This document shows positions 1,135-59,090 of a stretch of DNA of 64,000 nt, one piece after another. The notes under the pieces are model-generated. The model saw nothing but the letters and a program-made list of their open reading frames with translations, had not been told where the DNA came from and did no database searches. The stretch spans positions 33,906,914-33,970,913 of the forward strand of contig OY735222.1 in the NCBI GenBank assembly GCA_963457665.1, given 5' to 3'. Every line of letters begins with the position of its first letter. Within the stretch, counting starts at the first letter, position 1. Both the position numbers and the translations under genes were made by a program. This DNA is from Thysanoteuthis rhombus. Lineage: Eukaryota; Mollusca; Cephalopoda; Oegopsida; Thysanoteuthidae.

Positions 1135-4100
1135 CTGAAAAACAAAGCAAAATATTCAAAATTCTCCTGTTAAAAGTATCTTTTCCATTTCTTATTTGAT
1201 TGATATTACTGAAAGTGAAAACTACTGGTAAATCTTCAGGGAATAATGCAATACAATGGATAATCTCAAAATAAAGCTTTTCTCATTATTATGCTATGCA
1301 CTTGTGCAAAGAATATCTATTAATTATGTATCAAAAATTGCATTCAGCATTTTATAATACACTTTTTGCCTGTAAATTCCGATCCTAAACTAATATCTTT
1401 TATCAATTATAATCACTTTAGCTTTTTATTTTCTGGATGAAACCTTGCGCTTCCTTGCACTATCATTGAAACATGGAACAAAGTTGTATTAAGTTGCAAA
1501 GAATATTCTATTGAGAGGTGTCTTATGATCATTCTATCTTATAATTCTTCCAATTAGATTCATCATGTAACTCATAAATTTCACTGAAAGATATTCATTG
1601 AAATGAAAAATAAATTTCATTGAATAATTTAAAATAGAATTTCATTATGTTATATATACTGACAAAATAAAAGAGTACAGTTAGTATGAGGTAATTTACA
1701 AAATGCAAAAAGAAATATTCAATTCTTGGGTAATAACTTGAGAGCAGGGTTGTCATTTTAGCCTTTAAAAGTATGAAACAATAGCTAATCTATGAGAGTC
1801 TTTATGGCTGATTGGTAAAAGCAGCTAGGCATAAACTAGACTCCCTCTGGCAATGAGGGGATGAGTTTGATTCATTGAAGTCTTACTCTTTACTTCCAAT
1901 TATATTGTTATTCATTGCCATCAAAACAATGGCCAAAATTGAAAGTTGTTTAAAAAAGAACTGAAAATAAGATGAAAGAAAAATACTAGTCAGAAGTTTA
2001 GTGAAAAATTTGAGCTGTACAAACTTTTTGGAAGCTGGTAGACAAGGTTGAATTTTTACATATAATTGATTTAGTACTTTGGATTTTTGAACAATGTATT
2101 GAGAAGATTCAAAATGTGCATGTAACCGAAAAGATAAAACGTCAAATACTCAACTGAACGACCTCCACCACGAAGCACTTTTCATCATTCTCAATTCTTT
2201 CATCTTGACTTAATTCATCAAAGTCTTTTTATACCCAACAGATTCTCTTCTCTAAGTTAATTTCTACCCCCAACAATTGAACCTGTCGTATAGCTAAATC
2301 AAAAGATTCTCATGGCCATTTTATGTGCCCCCTTTTAATTTTTTTATAGATTTTGTTTTTAGATTATTCTATTTCAAATATTCAAGGACCCTCGGATGAA
2401 TTGTGCCATCAATTGCAGATTCTTTGTACCCAACGTGTCGCCTCTGCTTTTTATTGCAACTTCACACTGGAGGTCATTGTAAAATTACTATAAAACAATT
2501 GAAAAATCAAAATGAAAGTAAGTTGATTAAAAAAAAATGATTTACGATACTTCATCTGATAAAAATGAATAATATAATGATTGTTTTTAAAAACAATTCT
2601 GACATATGGCCATTTTTGGACATTATTTTGTGTGTTTTTGGACAGAAATGTCTCTAACTGTCTGGCGATCCTGTTTTAGGAAGTGCTTCATATAAATATA
2701 AGACATAATGGGTGATAGTTGGGAATCCCATTGCTATATCTACAATTAGTTGATTAATAGCTGAGCCTTTAATAGATTAAATTATGTTTAAAACTACCAA
2801 TTTAAAGATAAAAACATTTCATTTTGATGTTTATTTTAAAATAGCAAAGAACTCCAATTCTTACCTCGAGTGCTAGTTAATGGTTGCTGAGTTGTTGAAG
2901 CTGAAAAACAAAGAAAATGTATTTTTGAAAGAAAGCCAATCTAATAACTGGAAAAAAAACTTTTCTTATCACTAACACCGATTTATAATACTGGAAAAAT
3001 GCTTTTTGATTGACATGCACTGAATTCAGATATGCATTTAAAAAAAAATATCTACTGGCTCTGGGATTAGTGTAACTCTTAAGGATCAATTTTAACTGAA
3101 AATTATCATCTTCAATTTCAAAATTCCTTTAGTATACAAAAACTTACTGCAGATAACACCAGCATCTTCAGCATGTCCACAATTGTGTTGACCCCATGGA
3201 TTCTTTCTACACTGATCAATTGAGGTTTCATTTCCTAAACAGTTGACTTCATCAAGCCAAATCTTTCCAGTACCAGGTCCATATCTTCCATTTCTTTGAG
3301 CTGTACCACCACTGCAACAGCAAGAGAAATCAATGATTATGGTAATAACAATGTTTGCCTTATCCGTTTTTTTCTTTGGCTATATCGCCAAATACATCTC
3401 TCAAATTATTTTGCTTTTTTCTTCCAACAAAGGGTCTGATACTAGTGTAAAAATGAAAAAAATGACTGGCAGAATATTACTTACAACTCTTTATTTTTTT
3501 TTTCTACATCAGACGCATGTAATTTCGTTCACCTCATTTAACAAATGACCCTCCTTTACTAAGAGTGTGAACTAAGTCTATAAGTACTCTCTGTCCAATA
3601 ATCTTAAAAAGAAGAGTATACAACCAATGCATTCTCCCAATAGTCACTTATGGAGCTGAAACATGGAACCTAACCAAGAGACAGACCAACAAACCAAGAA
3701 GCATGCAATGCGTGTATGAGAGAATCATGCTCAACCTTACATGGAGAGATCATAAGACAGCACAATATATCAGAAAGAAAACGGGAGTCAGAGACATCTT
3801 AGAATCTATTAAAAAATTTGAATGGCAATGAGCAGGCCATGTTGCAAGAATGACAGACAACCAATAGACATCTTGACTCACAACATGGATCCTCAGAGAT
3901 CACATGCAAAACCAAGGCCAATAGAATACAAGATGGAGAGATGAAGTTGACAAATTCAGAAAATACTGGCCCCGCAACACCCATGATAGAAAATAGTGGT
4001 GGATCCTGGGGAAGGTCTATGTCCAACGATGGATGTTAAAAGACTGATGATGATGATGAAATGACAGCATTAGTGAAATCAGCTAGAATACCAAGAGGAA

Positions 4101-16147: not shown

Positions 16148-16868
16148 AAGAGAAAGAGAAAGGGAGATAAAAACAAGCTTGGCAGTACAGTAAATTTCTA
16201 GTAAGCCTTTCTTATTTTTTTTTTTCAAAATAAGGTACTCTACTACCTTTATAAAATAGTGTTTAATCAAATTTTAGACGTGCAATACATAATTACAATT
16301 AGTTGCGAAATACAAATGATGCTATTAGAACATTACACCAAATTGTTATAATCAATGGTCTACTCAACCAATGGTCCATTCAACCAATGGTCCATTCAAC
16401 CAATGGTCTATTCAACCAATGGTCTATTGAACCACTACATGATTGAGTTGTGTTATAAAATTGATATTACTATTTCTTAACCAAAAATGTTGTATAACTA
16501 GTGTAAAATTAACCCTTTCGTTTATTACACAAATATTTCATGGTTAACAGTTCAGACCCCAAAAAGTTATTCTAAAAAAAAGTAGGAAAATAAAAATAAA
16601 AATAAAAGGGTAACATTTACTGGTTCCTTTAATACACTGCAGACTAATATCTTCAATATGTGCACAGTTATTAGTGCCCCACAAGGCATGATTGCATTCT
16701 GCCAATGAAGCTTCATTGCCAACACATCTGACATCATCTAACCATATTGGTCCAGTTCCTGGATAAGTTTGTACTCTGTAGCCAGATCTGAAATAATGAA
16801 AAAAAAAAGAATGTATATAAAATAATACTGGATTATGGGTTTTCACTCCAAGGAAAGGATTACAGGTT

Positions 16869-16943
<75 letters not shown>

Positions 16944-19900
16944 ATGTGTATGTGTGTGTGTGTGTATGGTGTAATGATTGTAGGGACATTTTATTTGGAC
17001 ACATATTTAACACTAGTCCATGTAAATGGCGTCATGATAGATTCAAACCTGTGTCCACCAGGAAGCAGTCTTAACCCAATTCTGCTCTACCAACTGAACT
17101 AACAACACCCTTGGTAAGCAGGAATTCGAAAATAAGTGTGTTATTTTCGAACTGAACAAACAGCTTACAAATAAGAGATAAAACATACACATGCATATGC
17201 TTGCATACATTAATACATATACAACCCACATATTTGCGACTTGAAGTACACACACAATCTTACACCATCTGCTCTACCAACTGAACTAACAACACTCTTG
17301 GTAAGCAGGAATTCGAAAATAAGTGTGTTATTTTCGAACTCAACAAACAGCTTACAAATAAGAGATCAAACACATACATGCATATGCTTGCATACATTAA
17401 TACATATACAACCCACATATTTGCGACTTGAAGTACACACACAATCTTACACGATCCCAAGACTTACTCACTTTTCTACATTCGTACGGTTTCTATGAAC
17501 ATTAAAGAAACATGACAATCAATATAGACACTAACAAACTATCCTTTATTACAGTTATTCTGAATGAAAAATATATGTTAACTTATATTCGCCTCTTTGT
17601 CCAATGATTTACTGAACATGCTTTGAATATTAAATTTAGTTGTTGGTTGTTCATAACCCATGCATAATAATCTCACAATCCCAATCATCATCATCTTAAA
17701 GAACAGGAAAAACATTGCCAAATAGGCAATGTACAAATAAGTCATCTGCTCTATATAGATGAGAGGAAAATGTATGCAAAATCAGATAAAGAGGCAGATT
17801 TAGATGAAATGTATACTTAAGGATCATCTTGTCAAATGAAATGAAGGATAAGGAGGAGAATGAAAAGGACGTGTCTGAGTACGACAAGCGATTACGATCT
17901 ATTTTGAAACTTTAACAGTAGTAATCAAATCACTGCCATTGACACCTTTGCAGCACCAGTAATGACATACACGGTGGGTATAATTGATTGGACCTAGCAA
18001 GAACTTCGGTAAGTAGATACGAAAATCAGGAAAAAGATGACAATTTACAAAGTCCTGCCATGCTGGCCAATGACATCTTGGCAGAGGGTCTGGTGGAGTG
18101 GTCACAACAGATTTCAATCAGAGTAGCCTGAGAGCCTCACTGGCTCTTAGAACCAATAACATCCGCTCTTGATATGGTAGATAAGGGCTTTCGCAGCACT
18201 GTAGGGAATTAAAATCAGGTATGGATTATGGGACGGACAACTTTTTCTGTTTTTGTTTAGCAGTATAACTATGATTTCCTCTCCGGTCAATTCTTGAGTA
18301 TTGGAACTAGAGGTAAGCTGGGCAAAGTTAACACTAGTGCATTTGAGTTCACTTTTGGGTTGAACTCTCAAATGAGTGAATGATTTTGTAACAGGTCCTA
18401 CAAATTGGTTTTACGAGTAGTTAGGTGGGTAATTTTGGTTTGATCATACCTCTACCTTATTTCCAAAGGTTTCAACTTAGTAAAAGTCCATGGAAAGGTT
18501 TCATTAGGCAATGAACACTTGGCGTTTATCTGAAGCTCCTGATTTTAGTCGGTTGAAGGGATCTGTTTCAACATTGATAGTTTAATTTATATTTCTTTTT
18601 GCTAAAAAGTCTCTAACAGCTGTTAGAAAATGAAACCCATGACTTACAATAACCAGACTTAATTCTTATATTTGGCTCAAGGGAATTCAGATGTCTACTG
18701 CCTTTTGGTACGGAACCAGGAATACAGGAAGACAGCCGTTCCCTTGTGGTTTCCTTCAAAAAGTGCTATTTCTGTGGATTTAATTTCCATCTTAGATTTG
18801 AATATCCGGTGAAAAACACCAATTGCAACAGATGTGTCAAGAAGGCCACTTTGCTAAGGTTCACAAATTCCAGCTAGTTGGCTGCTACCCTGACTTTGAC
18901 CCTCACTATCAGAGCGGCTTTTCCTGGTAACTTTAGGTGGGCCACCATGGATGAAATGCTCAATGGAGTCAAAGTCTTGATCGATGCTGGAAGCTCAGAG
19001 AGCTTTGAAGCCATCAAATAGTTAAGTGGTATGGTTGAGAGTGACTTCTGCATCTGGATCTGTCGTCATTTCCTTTCTCCTCTTTCCGATCTTGGACTCA
19101 CCTTCATGTCTCAAGAGATGCGAGAGTACTTGACCAATAATAATGACCAACCTGAGCATCATGACTGGCTGGATGATGCCTTATAACCCTCGAGGTAATG
19201 GGAAGTGCGAGTGATATAATGAGGTAATATGGAAGCATATTACCCTGGCCTGAGACACTTCTGCTGTGCTCAGCCACCATTGTCACTCCCCATGGTAGAG
19301 GCTTTTTACATACCAGCGTCAGTGTCCCAGGGGTCATTCATTGACCATCTGGCTACCTGTTACTGGTGCCACCTTTCTGCCCAACAGTAAACATGACTCA
19401 TTTCCTTGGTGAAGTGGAATTAAACCCCCTGTGCGATTTGATGATGGATGTCAATCGATAGTCTCTGTCCATGACTTGGTTCCGATTGGCAACTTATCTT
19501 TAATGGAAAAACCCATTGACTCTTGTATGGATACTTATTCAGGGAAACCTCCTTTACCAGCTCTCAGATCACCCATTTTGCAACACTCCAATGCCGGCAG
19601 TGACCAAGGTTTTATGGGCGATAAAGGAACAAGGGAGAGAGCTCCTCTCTCTGGTATATTCAGTGATGTCCTCGGTGTCCCTGGGGTGGTTTGTGTGGGA
19701 TCACCGTGACCCTATCCGTTATTCTTCAAGAGGGGAGAATGAATGAATCTAAAACCGATTTTCTTGAAGAAATAATGTTCTGCACCTAAGTGTCTTCTAT
19801 AAATACTCATTTTTTCATTGTATGTACCGTTAGGGAAAATAAAGCCCAAGTTAAGGTTACACAAGTCTTGCGATCTTTTGTTAATAATAAGAAATCAGTC

Positions 19901-29555: not shown

Positions 29556-29902
29556 TTCAACTGTGCAATAAGTACATCGAGAATAAGGACATAACTGTTA
29601 AAATCGAAGATGCAAAACTGGAGAAAGTAGGCCGCTACATCTACCTAGGACAACGGATCTCTATGAAACTCACAAAAGAAGAAATCAAACGAAGAATCAC
29701 TCTAGGATGGCAAGCCTTTGGCAGAGCAAGCTCAACCTTCAAAAACAAGACGATTTCAATAATCCTAAAGAAGAGCATACAACCAATGAATCCTCCCGTT
29801 AGTCACCTATGGAGCTGAAACATGGAACCTAAGCAAGAGATAGATCTGTAAAGTGAGAACCATGCAGCGCGTACATGATGGAATCATTCGTATCCTCACC
29901 TT

Positions 29903-30265
29903 TTTGTGGCCCGTTCGGCATGGATTAAAGTGTAGTATCTGTTCCCCGACAGAGCCCGAGCCACAGGTATTGACACTTGCCTGCCGAATGGGTCGGAGAC
30001 GGTATGTGTCAAAGACCGAGTGCGCCAGTGCAATGTGTCAACCAATGATATAATGAGGCTGCACATTGCTACGCACATTGGATTCATCCTTGGGCTCTCC
30101 CACTATTACTCAGCCAAGCTGCTGGGGGATATGATGCCCCGAGGCAGCACTGTCCCATTGCACTAGAAGGGACAGGTCGGCTGGAGCTATTTTTAAAAGG
30201 TGTCTCCTATTTTCCCCTGACTTTGTGTCGCATTTTGCTCTGGTGGGAGAGTAAATTAATAGACC
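29903..30265 (+). repeat. snRNA-like composite element, unit A
   Basis: The start (29907-29952) reads GGCC..TT.GGC then GTGTAGTATCTGTTC, matching the U2 snRNA 5' region including the branch-recognition GTAGTA. The stretch 30021-30080 aligns with the 5' part of U4 snRNA (TGCGCCAGTG, CCAATGA, GAGGC, ATTGCTA). A conserved hairpin CTGTCCC/GGGACAG lies at 30150-30175. It ends with a TTTTGCTCTGGTGGGAG block and AT-rich text. GC content is clearly higher than the surroundings. Confidence 0.6.
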
Positions 30266-30274
30266 GCACATTTT

Positions 30275-30722
30275 TTTTGCCTTTTGGAAAGGATCAAAGT
30301 GTAGTATCTATTTCCCGACAGAGACCAAGGCGCCGGCACTAACACTTGCCTGTCGAATGGGCCGGAGATTGTGTCATCAAAGACCGAGTGCGCCGGTGCA
30401 ATGCGTTAGCCAATGAGGTTATACTGGGGCTGCGCATTGCTACGCACATTGGAAGCCTTTGAATTCGTCCTTGGGCTCTCCTACAATTACTCAGCCCAGC
30501 TGCGGGGGATACGATGCCCCGGGGCAGCACTGTCCCATAGCACTTAAAGGGACAGGTCGGGCTCGTGCTGGATGCTTTCGTGACTGCAGTTGTTCTAGCA
30601 ACCACGGTTGCTTAGGAACCCAAGTCGCGTCGGCTAGAGCTATTTTGATGGGTTGCTCCTATTTCCCCACGTAAAGACCTGACCTTGTGTCATATTTTGC
30701 CCTGGTGGGAGCATAAATAAAG
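30275..30722 (+). repeat. snRNA-like composite element, unit B
   Basis: Begins GCCTTTTGGAAAGGATCAAA and continues GTGTAGTATCT, closer to U2 at its first bases than unit A. The middle has TTAGCCAATGAGGTTATACT, 14 bases of which equal U4. The hairpin CTGTCCC/GGGACAG is kept at 30530-30555. An extra piece absent from unit A holds the palindrome AGCAACC-AC-GGTTGCT (30597-30612). It ends GGTGGGAGCATAAATAAA. Confidence 0.6.
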
Positions 30723-30862
30723 AGATGCTTTAGCAACCACGTTTGTTTAGCAAGCAAAGTCGCGTCAGCTGAAGCTATTTTTCATGGGTTCCTCCTTTTT
30801 CATCACGTAAAGCCCTGACCTGTGTCACATTTTGCTCTGATGGGAGAGTGAATAAATCGATG
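30723..30862 (+). repeat. snRNA-like composite element, 5'-truncated unit C
   Basis: Corresponds to the last 140 bases of unit B: TTTAGCAACCACG, AAGTCGCGTCAGCT, ATTTTGCTCTGATGGGAG and GAATAAAT. It adjoins the resumed LINE. Confidence 0.6.
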
Positions 30863-31185
30863 CTCAAAGAGATTACAACAAAGAACTGTATATTAGGGAG
30901 AAAACAGTCTGAGACATCATAAAATCAATTAGAAAAACTTGAATGGCAATGGACTGGACATGTTGCAAGAATGGCAGACAACCGATGGACATCACGACTC
31001 ACAACATGGATCCCACATGCGAAACCGAAGCTGGCAGAATACGGAAGATGGAGAGACGAACTAGACAAATTCAGGAAGTACTGGCTCCACGACGCCCACG
31101 ATAGAAAAATATGGCGAATCCTGGGGAAGGTCTATATCCAACGACAGACGATGAAAGACAGCTGGTGGCGATGATGATGAATTCC

Positions 31186-40865: not shown

Positions 40866-41448
40866 TTATCATCATCACCAGTCTTTTAACATTTATCATT
40901 GGAGCTAGACCTTCCCCAGGATTTGCCAGGCCTCCCTATCATGAGCATCGTGGAGCCAGTACTTTCTGAATTTATCTAGCTCGTCAAGCCATCTGAAATT
41001 CAGGCAGCCAAATTTTCGCATATGATCTGTGGGGATCTACGTTGTGAGTCGTGATATCAAGCAGCTGTCTGACATTCTTACGACACGTCCAGCCCATTGC
41101 CATTTGAGTTTTCTGATTGCTTATGCGGTATCTTTTCTTCAATAAACTGTGTTGTCTTATGATCACACCATTTGAGGTTGAGCATGATTATTTCATGTGC
41201 ATGTTGCATGGCAGTCTCTTGGTTAGGTTCCATGTTTCAGCTCCATAGGTGACTAGTAAGAAGATGCTTTGGCCGTATACTCTTCTTTTTAAGACTAATG
41301 GGAGCTTTTTTGTTCTTGATGGTTGAGCTAGCTCTGCTAAAGGCTTGCCATCTTAGAGTAATCCTTCGCTTGATTCATTCTTCTTTCTAGGGTTTCATGT
41401 AGATTTGTTGTCCTAGGTAGATGTAGTGGTCTACTTTCTCCAGTTCTC
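40866..41448 (-). mobile_element. RTE-type LINE 3' end with (GAT) tail
   Basis: The minus strand carries the RTE C-terminal module: a WRDELDKF-like stretch, QMAMGWTCRKNVRQ (in other copies KWQWAGHVARM...) and the YLGQQIYMK text near the 5' border. Its 5' border meets a different LINE at about 41.45 kb. Confidence 0.8.
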
Positions 41449-46639: not shown

Positions 46640-48285
46640 ACCGTCACTGCTCTATCGAGAACTCGTCCACCTAGAATGATTCTTCGCTGCATTTACACCT
46701 TCTTTTGAGGATGTCTTGGAGACTCGTTGTCCAAGGTAGATACAGTGATGAACTTTGTCCAGCTTTGCGTTTTCGATTTTGATCGTTGTGCGTTTATTTC
46801 CGACTCGTTTGTTGTATATGATCTTTGTTTTGCTGAAATTCATGTGAAGGCCAAATTCATTTAGCATTGGCTAGAGTTCGTGGAAGTTTTCTGCAAAAAG
46901 GACGATGTCTTCAGCAAATCTGAGGTTACTCAGGTTTTGCTGTCTCTTCTGATTCCTTTGTTTTCCCAATCTAGGTTTCTGGAGATCATATCGAGGCAGG
47001 ATGTGAAGAGCTTGGGTGAGTTGGTATCACCTTGTTTTACCTCTTTTGGGATCTGAAAGTCTTTATGTAACCTGGCAAAGGAGCTGCTGTGACGGTATAT
47101 ATGGTACAAACCTCTGACATGTATGGGGTCAACATCTTGTGGGATGATAGCATCAATGACCTTGGGAGTTTCTACTGAATCGGAGGCCATCTTGAAGTCT
47201 ATAAATGGTACTGCAAGTGGTATTCTATATTCTGCTGCTTTTTCTTTTAGTTGATTTATCGAATGGAGATGGTTCATGGTTGGGTAGCTTCTTCTAAAGC
47301 AAGTTTGTTCCTCTGGCTGGTTTTCATCCAGCATTTTTGAGATTCGGTTGATGATAACTTTGGTGAAAAGTTTGTGCATTCGAGTAGACTTATTGGTCTG
47401 TAGTTGTTGAGGTCTTTCGGATTTCCTTTTTTATGTAATAGCATAATGATTGCAGTGTTCTAATCATCTGAGACTTTATTGAGAATAAATTGACTAATTT
47501 CCAGTGATGACATGACCAGTTTTTTTGAGTAGGTCGATGGTGATGTTATCGGGTCCAGGGGCTTTTCCATTTTTGTTCGTCTGATGGCTTGTTTTACTTC
47601 CCATGGTGCAACTTCTGGGAAGTCCATGAATTGATTTCTCGTGTCTTGCTATTTGTGTTCCTTGTTTTGAAGATTAGAGTTTTGGGTAGAATTCTTAGGC
47701 ACGTTCGACAATCAGGTCCTTTTCTGTTGTTAGTTTTCCATTTTTCTCGAATACACTAGTTATTTATTTCTGTCCAGCATTGAGAGTTTAGTCAATAGCT
47801 TTGAAGCCCCGACCTTTTTTTGCGAATTGTTTCGATAATTGCTGTCGTGTATCTTCTCTTGGAAGGGCGTATAACCAATGCATCCTCCCAATAGTCACTT
47901 ATGGAGCTGAAACATGGAACCTAACAAAGAGACAGATCTGTAAATTGAGAACCATGCAACGTGCATATGAAAGAATTATGCATGGAGAGACCACAAGACA
48001 GCATAGTGCATCTGAGAAAAGACAAGAGTTAGAGACATCATAGAATCCATTAAAAATCTCAAATGGCGGTGGGCTGGCCATGTTTCAAGAATGGCGGATA
48101 ACCGATGGACATCGCAACTCACGACATGGATCCCCCGAGATCACATACGCAACCGAGGCTGGCAGAATATTAGATGGAGAGACGAGCTAGACAAGTCCAA
48201 GAAGTACTGGCTCCGTGATGCCCATAATAGAGAAGTGTGTCAAATCCTGAGGAAGGTCTATGTCCAACGACGGACGTTAAAAGAC

Positions 48286-48325
<40 letters not shown>

Positions 48326-54540: not shown

Positions 54541-54842
54541 GCTGACATAACTGAAATTCTTGGGAGACATGAAGATATGTGGATCAACAAACTCAAAACT
54601 CTCTCCCCTAATTGACTTAATACCAAACAGAACAACCCTAATCACACTGATCTCTAAATCATAATCCTCCAACAAATAATAACCTCACATACACAATCTA
54701 CCCTCTCTCAGGTATATCTAATATTGGGAACTTCAGAGTCACTCAGACCCATAACGACTGAAACCTTCGAAGGGCATCCCACTCGTGCAAATCAGAGCTG
54801 ACACACATATTCACGTATATACGTATATAAACATACACATAT

Positions 54843-56800
54843 CGTCATCATCATCATCAGTCTTTTAACGCCCAACGTTGAACATAGACCTTCCCCATGA
54901 TTTGCCACACCTTTCCAACGTGGGCGTAGCAGAGCCAATTACTTTCTGAATTTGTCAAGCTCGTCTTTCCATCTAATATTCTACCGGCCTCAGTTGCGCA
55001 TGTGATCTCTGGGGATCCACGTCGTGAGTCACGATGTTCATTGGTTGTCTGCAATTCTTGCAACATGGCATGAGATTTTTAATTGTTTCTATGATGTCCC
55101 TGATTCCTGTCTTTTCCCAGATGCACTGTGCTGTCTCGTGGTCTCTCCATGTGAGGCCCAGTATAATTCGTTAATGTGCACGTTGCATGGTTCTCAATTT
55201 GCGGATCTGTCTCTTGGTTAGGTTCCATGTTTCAGTTCCATAATTGACTATTGGAAGTATGCATTCTTTTAAGGATTAATGGGATCTTCTTATTTTCGAA
55301 GGTTGAGCTTGCTCTGCCAAAGGCTTGCCATCCTAGTGTGATTCTTCGTTTGATTTCCTCTTCTTTTGAGGGTCTCATGGAGATTTGTTATCCTAGGTAG
55401 GTGTAGTGATCTACTTTCTCCAGTTCTGTGTCTTCGATTTTGATCTTTGTATTTTTATCCCCGATGTGGTTGTTGCATATGATCTTCGTCTTGCTGAAGT
55501 TCATGTGTAGGCCAACCTTCTTGCTCTCTTCATTTTGTTCATTTAGCATTTGTTGGAGGTCCTGTCGGTTCTCTGCGAAAAGGGCAATGTTCTTTGCAAA
55601 TCTGAGGTTGCTCAGATATTCGCTGTCTATTTTGATTCCTTGTGTTACTTCTTTTTTGGAGCTGAAAGTCTCTGAGTCTTTATGTAACTCGATAAAGGAG
55701 CTACTGTGATTGTATATATATTTCAGCACTTTGAAATGTATTGTATCTATACCTTGTCGAGTGATGGCCTCCATGACCTTAGAGATTTCTACCGAGTCGA
55801 AGGCCCTCTTGAAGTTGATAAGTGCTACAGCGAGTCGTAGTTTATATTCTGCTGCTAATTCTTTCAGTTGATTTATAGAATGCCATGGTCGAGTAGCTTA
55901 TTATAAAGCCAGCCTGCTCTCGTGGTTGGTTTTCCTCTACTGTTTTAGTGATCTGATTAGTGCTGATTTTTGTGCAAAGTTTGTGAAGTCCTCGAGTTGA
56001 TTGCTCACGTCTTGCGTATCCTGTTCATTGTTTTGTATTCCTTGTTTGGACGGATAGAGTTTTTGGTAAAATTCTTTGGCACGTTCAATAATCCTCTCTC
56101 TGTGTATGGCTAGGTCTCCATTTTCCTCGAGTATGCTGGTTATTTGCTTCCGTGCTGAATTGAGGCCTTTGTTTATAGCTTTGAAGCCCCGACCACTTTC
56201 AATTGTCGATTCGATGACTGGCGTCGTGTATCTTCTGTGTTCTCTTCGTTTTTTCCTGATTATTTTATTCAGTTCGGTCGCTTCAATTTTCTTTCTCGTT
56301 GTCGGTGGCTTGGGGTTTCCGCATTTTCCATGAGATTCCTAGTTGCATCTGAGATTTTACTAATGTTGTTCAGTAAGAATTCAAAATCTGTTTTCCAGTT
56401 CGAGCTTGAGAGATCGAGAGTGCTCTTTTGGTATGTTTAGTGGTTGTGGTTTGGTGTGGAACATTTTCCTGGGTTCTTTGTTGGTGTTTGCTTGCATTTT
56501 ACATCGTACCATTCTGTGGTCGCTTCCTACATTGATTTGATTCAAGATTTGGATGTCCTTGACGATATTACTTTTGCCCTTCACAATGTAGTCTATTTTG
56601 TTCATTTTTCCGTGATTGGGGCTCTTCCAAGTCCATTTACTATTGGATCCTATCTTGAAAAAGGTGCTCATGATTTTGAATCCGTTAGCCATTTAAAAGT
56701 TTATAAGATCTTCTCTCCCGTTCCGTACTTAATATCTGAATTTTTCATTGCTTTGTCATACCTATGCGTTGAAGTTTCCCATGATATATATGTATATATG
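54843..56800 (-). mobile_element. RTE-type LINE, long copy with endonuclease end and reverse transcriptase
   Basis: The (GAT) tail is at 54.85 kb and the coding order runs leftward. It has GNFNA in place of GDFNA near 56.77 kb, WTWKSPNHGKMNKIDYIV and NVGSDHRMVRCK (the endonuclease SDH block), reverse transcriptase pieces around 55.4-55.8 kb (EVTQGIKIDSEYLSNLRFAK; KVGLHMNFSKTKIICNN), then the C-terminal module. Many frames are broken and the YADD loop is damaged. Confidence 0.88.
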
Positions 56801-57214: not shown

Positions 57215-59090
57215 TACATCATCATCATCATCAACATCAGTCTTTTAACGTCCGTCGTTGGATAAGGACCTTTCCCAGGATTCGCCACAATTCTCTATTG
57301 TGGGCGTCACGGAGCCAGTATTTTCTGAATTTGTCTTGTTCATCTTGCTATCTTGTATTCTGTCGGCCTTGGTTTTGCATGTGATCTCTGGGGATCCATG
57401 TTGTGGGTCATGATGTCCATCGGTAGTCTATCATTCTTGCAACATATCCTGCCCATTGCCATTTAAGTTTTTTAATAATTTCTATGATGTCTCGGACTCC
57501 TGTTTTCTTCCTAATATACTTGTCTTGTCATCTCTCGATGTTGCAGTACTATCACGTATACAGAGTCTACACCTTGCAGGGTGATGGCTTTCATGACCAT
57601 GGGAATTTCTACAGAGTTGAATGCCTTCCTGAAATCTACAAATGCTACAGCAAGTGGCATTTTGTATTCTGCTGCTTTCTCTTCCAGCTGATTTATTGAA
57701 TAAAGATGGTCCATGGTCGAGTGAGTTTTTTCAAATCCAGCCTGCCCTCGTCACTGGTTTTCATCTTGCGTTTTAGTAATCCAGTTGATGATGATTTTTG
57801 TGGAAAGTTTGTAAATGCAGTTGAGTAGGTTTATAGGCCTGTAGCTGTTGCGGTCTTTCGGGTTTCTTTTTTATGTAGAAGTATTATGATTACAGTATTC
57901 CTGTCTTTCAGGACTTTACTCTGTTTCATACACAAGTTGAATAGAATAGCTAGCTTTTTGTTGATGCTCTTACCAGCTTTTTTGAGTACATCGATGGTGA
58001 TGTTATGTAGTCTGGGGGTTTCACCTTTTTTTGTTTGTTCAATGGCTTGCTTTACTCCCCATGGTGTAACTTCTGGGAAGTCCTCGAACTGATTGTCAGC
58101 GTCTTTTGTATTCAGGTCGTCGTTTTACTGTCCGTTCTTTGAAGAGTAGAGTTCCTGGTAAAATTCTTGGACGAGTTCAACAATTCTGTCTCTGTCTGTT
58201 GATATGTCTCCGTTTGCTCTGAGTATGCTAGTTATTTATTTCTGTCATCCACTGAGAGCTTTGTTTATTACTTTAAATCCTCGCCGTTCTTCGAGAGTGG
58301 TTTCGATGATTGCTGTCGTGTACCATCTTTTGTCTTCTCATGGTATTTTTTTTATTGTTTTGTTTAGGTCAGTTTCTTCTATTTTTTCTCTTATTGTTGT
58401 TGGTGATTTGAGGTTTCTGCACTTTTCAATAAGTTTCCTGGTTTCATCTAAGATTTTGCAAATGATCGCTGTGTATTTTGGTTTAAGCATATTGGCAGCT
58501 TCTAATAGATAGGTCGTTTTTTTGCTGTGGAGTTCGTTGAGGTTGGTGTCGTTTTTGGTTAGGATATCAAGGGTTGGGTGAGTTTGTTTAGCACGTTTAA
58601 TGGTTACAGTTTGGTGTGGAACATTCTCCTGTGTTCTTTATTGGTAATTATTTGTATCTTACACTTTACCATTCTATGGTCGCTTCCTACGTTTACTTGG
58701 CTTAGAATTCGAATGTCTTTGATGGTGTTGCATTCGTCTGTCAGGATGAAGTCTATTTCGTTTTTGGTTTCATGGTTGGGGCTCTTCCAAGTCCATTTTG
58801 TATTGGGTTTCTTTTTAAAGAATGTATTCATGATTTTTAAGTCGTTTACGGTTGCAAAGTTTACAAGATTTTCACCTCTCTCGTTCCGTCTTTTGTATCC
58901 AAATTCTCCGATGCAGTGTTTGTTTCCTTGTCCTACTTGTGCGTTGAAATCTCCAATGATGACATTGGAGTATTTTCTGGTATCTTGGGGTATAGAGTTC
59001 AAGTCATCATAGAAGTTGCTGATTTCTTCTCTGGTTGATTGCGAAGTGGGAGCGTAGACTTGGATGACATTTAGCTTGTACTTATTTGAG
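57215..59090 (-). mobile_element. RTE-type LINE with the best-preserved endonuclease, internally deleted
   Basis: From right to left on the minus strand: NVIQVYAPTSQSTREEISNF-like text, NVIIGDFNAQVGQGNK, FKKKPNTKWTWKSPNH and NVGSDHRMVKCK. This is the apurinic-like endonuclease with both GDFNA and SDH blocks, in one open frame of 132 codons (58604-59002). At about 57.54 kb the C-terminal module joins directly to the middle of the reverse transcriptase (AFVDFRKAFNSVEIP), so several hundred bases are missing. Confidence 0.88.

Follow-up and report, generated by a model that had tools for sequence, protein, structure and literature searches.

U2- and U4-like snRNA sequence in a GC-rich tandem block interrupting a LINE remnant of Thysanoteuthis rhombus: a putative snRNA-headed, SINE-like retroposon

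Retroelements associated with snRNA sequence

SINEU, reportedly described by Kojima in 2015, is said to comprise non-coding repeats of crocodilian hosts with sense U1- or U2-derived 5′ heads that were added repeatedly. The locus considered here lies in a 64-kb stretch of DNA from the cephalopod Thysanoteuthis rhombus, all of which was analysed and is hereafter called the window. Like SINEU, it holds a non-coding repeat with a sense snRNA-like 5′ head; unlike SINEU, the head would join U2 with U4, the host is not crocodilian, and the family, the tail, and the partner LINE are all putative. Membership in SINEU is not claimed. In octopus annotation, we take the SINE label 'U' to stand for the snRNA type. 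Table 1, within the portion of PMC13282606 that was available, lists for Octopus vulgaris one SINE 'U' family with 19 insertions classed as recently active (13,954 bp) and one 'U-L1' family with 2 insertions (353 bp); these also come from a cephalopod, and it is their label that likens them to the present repeat.

SINEU is a recognised SINE class in the class table of PMC5753468, and snRNA is among the SINE heads named in the accessible text of PMC7245038. Because SINEU is recognised and the octopus list includes a SINE 'U', the kind of element is not new, and possibly even the family is known; the new part would be the head joining U2 and U4. Among the papers listed, neither a U4-headed SINE nor a snRNA-headed SINE of a mollusc appeared, save for the 'U' label in PMC13282606; no literature joining SINE, U2 snRNA, U4 snRNA, and template switching was found, and the term 'snRNA' is absent from the available portions of two octopus-repeat papers (PMC8967140, PMC9115989).

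Two further systems bring snRNA sequence and retroelements together. In mammals, according to the accessible part of PMC13174262, LINE-1 forms chimeras with U1, U2, U4, U5, and U6, with a strong sense bias for U6 and a sense bias stated for U3 as well; its authors invoke template switching or RNA ligation to account for the chimeras. They share with the present locus a snRNA or snRNA-like sequence 5′ to a retroelement; as far as that text goes, however, they are single events, with LINE-1 forming the 3′ part and the U6 part usually full length, whereas here a composite with 3′-truncated snRNA-like parts is repeated. Utopia, described in the available part of PMC4640811 as a group of autonomous non-LTR retrotransposons targeting U2 genes, likewise unites U2 sequence with a retroelement; unlike Utopia as presented there, the present block is non-coding and includes a U4-like part.

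The tandem block and its host LINE

The GC-rich block spans 29900-30862 and consists of unit A, unit B, and then a partial copy, unit C (Table 1). Its GC content is 50% (51% in A, 52% in B, and 44% in C) versus 34% for the window. The two GC-rich tandem units of the original prediction are thus found where they had been placed, and nhmmer adds the truncated third copy, which had not been described separately. Units A and B are 81% identical across 300 aligned bases and agree in order and spacing. Unit C matches the end of unit B at 81% over 143 bases, and Tandem Repeats Finder (TRF) reports the linker and tail shared by B and C with a period of 135, 2.0 copies, and 82% matches. The nhmmer model built from A and B gave three matches in the window, all within the block (A, B, and C), and nothing else in the 64 kb matches the tail. 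No copies were found by distant blastn of phages and plasmids, by three exact patterns in viral contigs, or by one exact pattern in prokaryote genome contigs; since these sets comprise viruses, plasmids, and prokaryotes, few were expected there. A bacterial promoter and terminator scan of the sequence gave nothing informative.

Table 1. Positions of the tandem units, snRNA-like blocks, predicted hairpins, and flanking LINE parts in the window
Feature	Position	Strand	Basis or remark
LINE coding remnant, 5′ part (C-terminal side of reverse-transcriptase protein)	29564-29899	+	blastn
Unit A	29900-30269	+	370 bases; nhmmer with A/B model, E 5e-126 (by construction)
U2-like block of unit A	29904-29944	+	aligned to U2 nt 6-45; local score 39
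Antisense arm of hairpin 1, unit A (predicted)	29963-29995	+	contains ACTTGCCTG; fold of 29900-30003
Hairpin 2 of unit A (predicted), at position of U4-like block	30016-30081	+	fold z -3.1, 1/200 shuffles
Two hairpins closed by a stem, unit A (predicted)	30110-30184	+	fold of 30105-30190
Unit B	30268-30725	+	458 bases; nhmmer with A/B model, E 4.9e-165 (by construction)
U2-like block of unit B	30279-30312	+	aligned to U2 nt 12-44; local score 45
U4-like block of unit B, 5′ domain (forms hairpin 2)	30382-30443	+	Rfam U4
Linker and tail of unit B (second copy: unit C)	30588-30722	+	135 bp; TRF, repeat families D6 and D8
Unit C, 5′-truncated, linker and tail only	30723-30860	+	nhmmer E 2.3e-26, model 323-460
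Possible right copy of target-site duplication	30849-30867	+	likeness to LINE sequence left of insertion point
LINE coding remnant, 3′ part	30868-31180	+	ends in GATGATGATGA; blastn

Both flanks of the block are halves of one interrupted LINE coding remnant, and both match other copies in the window. The blastn partners of the 5′ part are 55163-55477(-), 41215-41445(-), 47862-47979(+), 3596-3728(+), and 46670-46798(-), and those of the 3′ part are 57219-57519(-), 48020-48306(+), 3745-4059(+), 54841-55067(-), and 40868-41122(-), plus shorter ones. LINE copies that run across the insertion site lie near 3596-4059, 41445-40868(-), 47862-48306, and 55163(-); in the 3.7-kb copy, the sequence there is AATCATGCTCAACCTTACATGGAGAGAT. 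The copy at 47862-48306 is without 10 bases at 47980-47981 (CTCAACCTTA in the 3.7-kb copy), exactly at the point where the block is inserted. Pfam, run on 4 of the window's 18 long open frames and on one short piece, found RVT_1 in two frames, Exo_endo_phos_2 in one, and a scavenger receptor cysteine-rich domain (SRCR) in one, with nothing in the short piece. We presume from its C-terminal motifs and its GATGAT end that the LINE remnant belongs to the RTE type.

To the right, the block is flanked by TGAATAAATCGATGCTCAA, which is similar to LINE sequence left of the insertion point and suggests a target-site duplication of 13-19 bp such as LINE enzymes make. The score was reached by 0.9% and 3.9% of shuffles for two LINE copies, c41 and c3, and the likeness was not significant for c55 and c47; since two of the four copies show nothing, the duplication is a candidate. 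The candidate right copy overlaps the end of unit C, so the end of the element is uncertain. When the inner junctions A/B and B/C were compared with the four LINE copies, one of the eight comparisons fell below 5% of shuffles (A/B versus c3, 1.5%).

These features also bear on whether the block could be a solo LTR or a promoter-rich repeat of an LTR element, as the original prediction had allowed. The tandem layout would suit such an origin, as would AATAAA motifs close to where B and C end, and so would the absence of a long open frame from the block (the longest stop-free run in six frames is 97 aa); nothing seen favours it strongly, however, three tandem units with the last one 5′-truncated speak against it, and the possible duplication is unlike the 4-6 bp usual for LTR elements. 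We regard an LTR origin as very improbable.

Likeness to spliceosomal snRNAs

The U2 likeness was assessed by covariance models, shuffles, and a scan of the whole window. When 1,001 bases (29880-30880) were compared on both strands with all 4,227 Rfam families using cmscan with E up to 10, three matches only were returned: U2 and U4, both sense, were the top two, and the third was a Dictyostelium snoRNA on the opposite strand (E 2.9). In that scan, U2 matched unit B at 30268-30347 with 19.8 bits and an E of 0.16, which became 0.033 when unit B was scanned alone. Unit A scanned alone gave five matches (U2, Giardia U2, and three snoRNAs), with U2 at 29898-29979 (12.2 bits, E 2.1), Giardia U2 at E 9.7, and one snoRNA (E 0.58) outranking U2; the U2 match falls at the place homologous to that in unit B, which counts for snRNA descent. 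The U2 and U4 matches all stay well below the gathering thresholds: at that level the whole window gave 0 matches, and the U2 scores are far under the gathering score of 46. With E up to 10, the whole window gave 65 matches, most of which came from microRNA models hitting simple repeats, and U2 was absent from them. Because most listed matches start at model position 1, such starts are no evidence of a 5′ position and were not counted; the 5′ position of the snRNA likeness is given by the local alignments (U2 nt 6-45 and 12-44; U4 nt 6-73).

Against 6,000 dinucleotide shuffles each, scored with human U2 and human U4, the U2 score was equalled in none for unit B and in 3 for unit A. A separate shuffle panel of 27 tests (9 RNAs × 3 units) gave p <0.001 solely for U2 in A, U2 in B, and U4 in B, with the next-lowest values at 0.036-0.048. 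Eight snRNAs were then scanned over both strands of the whole window with reversed decoys as a control. The best U2 places were unit B (45) and unit A (39), with the third at 38; the decoys peaked at 37 (U2) and 40 (U4), and top scores for the six other snRNAs were 30-38, so that unit A's score stands just one above the third U2 place and the best U1 place (38 each). When A and B were scored jointly, the values were weaker, with p 0.0037 for U2 and 0.0011 for U4 (Gumbel fit, 60 shuffles each). The U2-like block that the original prediction had set at the heads of the units is supported in both, and we consider it likely that the unit head descends from U2.

U4 had been predicted for both units, and the two differ in this respect. 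In unit B, the Rfam U4 model scored 19.1 bits with an E of 0.076 in the 1,001-base scan, a better E than that of U2 there (13 bits and E 0.66 on the shorter stretch of unit B alone), and the local alignment runs from U4 nt 6-73 over 30389-30460, collinear across most of the stretch. The unit B score (44) was equalled in 1 of 6,000 shuffles and marks the best U4 place in the whole window, the next being 37; U4 was also the sole spliceosomal snRNA among the 65 whole-window matches (E 4.9). In unit A scanned alone, U4 was absent, and the shuffle p was 0.24. Since 1,828 of 6,000 shuffles match unit A's U4 score, the U4 claim is confined to unit B, where the U2 and U4 match starts lie 114 bases apart. 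On this evidence, a descent of the second block from U4 seems to us moderately probable, and the balance tilts at most faintly toward U2 and U4 descent both being true.

Two further parts of the original prediction did not hold. A U1-like 5′ end had been proposed between the blocks; its 45-nt score was reached by 46-49% of 2,000 shuffles, and U1 descent of the middle block was rejected. The likeness is limited to the 9-mer ACTTGCCTG, which agrees with U1 at 8/9 bases, and the score of the first 11 nt of U1 alone was reached by 1.3-1.5% of shuffles; as this 9-mer falls within the antisense arm of unit A's hairpin 1, the resemblance is disposed of. It had also been argued that each unit keeps snRNA bases that the other has lost, so that their ancestor would have been closer to the snRNA. 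Although the columns in which A and B differ and one of them agrees with the snRNA number 9/9 for U2 and 7/7 for U4, shuffled U2 and U4, each optimally aligned, account for 85-87% of the columns that differ; the complementary losses are not above this control, add little, and were rejected as evidence for a snRNA-like ancestor.

Predicted folding bears on how much of the likeness could have arisen otherwise. The U2-like block of unit A is one arm of the near-perfect predicted hairpin 1 (fold of 29900-30003: -45.6 kcal/mol, z -4.1, 0/200 shuffles as good), and, read by eye, the places where its stem departs from U2 match the opposite arm, so the ancestor could have been a palindrome merely resembling U2. 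The homologous region of unit B folds no better than shuffles (z +0.8). Hairpin 2, which occupies the U4-like position, is strong in A and B alike, with z -3.1 also in unit B (fold of 30384-30456); between the units, one stem pair shifts from U-A to C-G, so that both of its bases differ. Further along, the fold of 30105-30190 in unit A has z -3.7 (0/200 shuffles) and its equivalent in unit B z -2.3; whole-unit folds gave z -4.0 for A (1/100 shuffles) and -1.95 for B (5/100). Of the 93 pairs in a consensus fold of the two sequences, 4 are changed on both sides. Hairpin 1 is missing from this fold, and a conserved structure is beyond what two sequences can prove.

One alternative is a SINEU-like, SINE-like element headed by U2 only, in which the U4 likeness would be a chance match of a hairpin. 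With the stem of hairpin 2 strong in A and B and a pair changed on both sides, it could persist for its own sake, and U2 is found in both units while U4 is found in B only; the U4 match in B, on the other hand, has the better E, its score is nearly unmatched by shuffles, and it is collinear over most of nt 6-73, and we consider a head of U2 only unlikely. A second alternative dispenses with snRNA descent altogether and takes the block for an unclassified hairpin-rich repeat with chance likeness to U2 and U4 among many comparisons. Taken one at a time, E-values of 0.16 and 0.076 are weak, and the complementary losses do not exceed their control; in unit A, moreover, hairpin 1 forms a near-perfect palindrome and a snoRNA beats U2 by E-value. 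Against chance, the top two of 4,227 families are both spliceosomal and sense at a spacing of 114 bases, and U2 is recovered in both units. This explanation, too, strikes us as improbable.

Element class and proposed origin

Features of several classes were compared with the block. As in SINEU-type elements, the units are short and non-coding (370 and 458 bases). A tRNA- or 5S-headed SINE is not supported: no B box occurs in the block at up to 2 mismatches, ARAGORN found no tRNA, and among the 27 shuffle tests 5S gave p 0.048 in unit A and 0.087 in unit B. When 1 mismatch is allowed, there are 14 A-box-like matches, one of them exact (minus strand), and they are so frequent that they say little. 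A DNA transposon is likewise not supported, as terminal inverted repeats are wanting and the end-to-end inverted alignment was reached by 6.8% of 1,000 shuffles. The block is small, non-coding, and located inside a LINE with a suggestive target-site duplication, for which reasons we provisionally call it SINE-like. Tandem arrays of snRNA genes exist in several animals, and a decayed array with adjacent U2 and U4 pseudogenes would place the two RNAs side by side; U2 RNA is about 188 nt long, however, so a U2-U4 spacing of 114 bases in unit B is too close, and the block lies inside a LINE and is free of Sm sites even when 1 mismatch is allowed, which makes such an array hardly credible.

The reading to which we lean by a small degree is that the block is the decayed remnant, at one locus, of a snRNA-headed, SINE-like retroposon with a head of U2 and U4. 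Whether there was a retroposon family whose RNA started with the U2 and then the U4 5′ domains, acquired successively, we would put at even chances. The element, if expressed as RNA, would carry the U2 5′ domain (nt 6-45), about 114 nt further on the U4 5′ domain (nt 6-73), a structured body, and an AT-rich tail. A LINE-encoded enzyme may have carried out target-primed reverse transcription of this RNA and, at the 5′ end of the template, may have jumped to a nearby snRNA and copied toward the snRNA's own 5′ end. Repeated jumps would yield a chain of sense snRNA 5′ domains, all of them truncated on the 3′ side. This composite could then have been copied as a unit, as the common order and spacing in A and B suggest, and placed head to tail in the LINE coding region. 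Reverse transcription of the jumping type fits because the snRNA-like blocks are sense 5′ parts without their 3′ sides. The interrupted LINE, the possible target-site duplication, and the mammalian LINE-1 chimeras with snRNAs also count in favour of this reading; the absence of a B box and of an Sm site from the block, and of a second locus from the window, counts against it.

In the spliceosome, U6 pairs with the stretches of U2 and U4 that are represented here, and we speculate that a snRNA head might retain the RNA in the nucleus near the mobilising machinery. If the proposed retroposon is confirmed, two different snRNA heads stacked in one element would document serial template jumping directly, and U4 would join the RNAs used as SINE heads. 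The promoters of snRNA genes are external, so a SINE with a snRNA head needs another route of transcription, and confirmation would sharpen this promoter question for snRNA-headed SINEs.

Elsewhere in the window, a 187-bp unit repeated twice in tandem at 17081-17456 (96% matches) appears, from its consensus, to hold a tRNA-like A box, TAGTTCAGTTGGTAGAGCAGA, on the minus strand; by this motif it is probably a tRNA-derived SINE, though ARAGORN found no tRNA. At 16544-16909 (-), the open frame with the SRCR domain (Pfam, E 2.7e-11) is perhaps an exon of a host gene.
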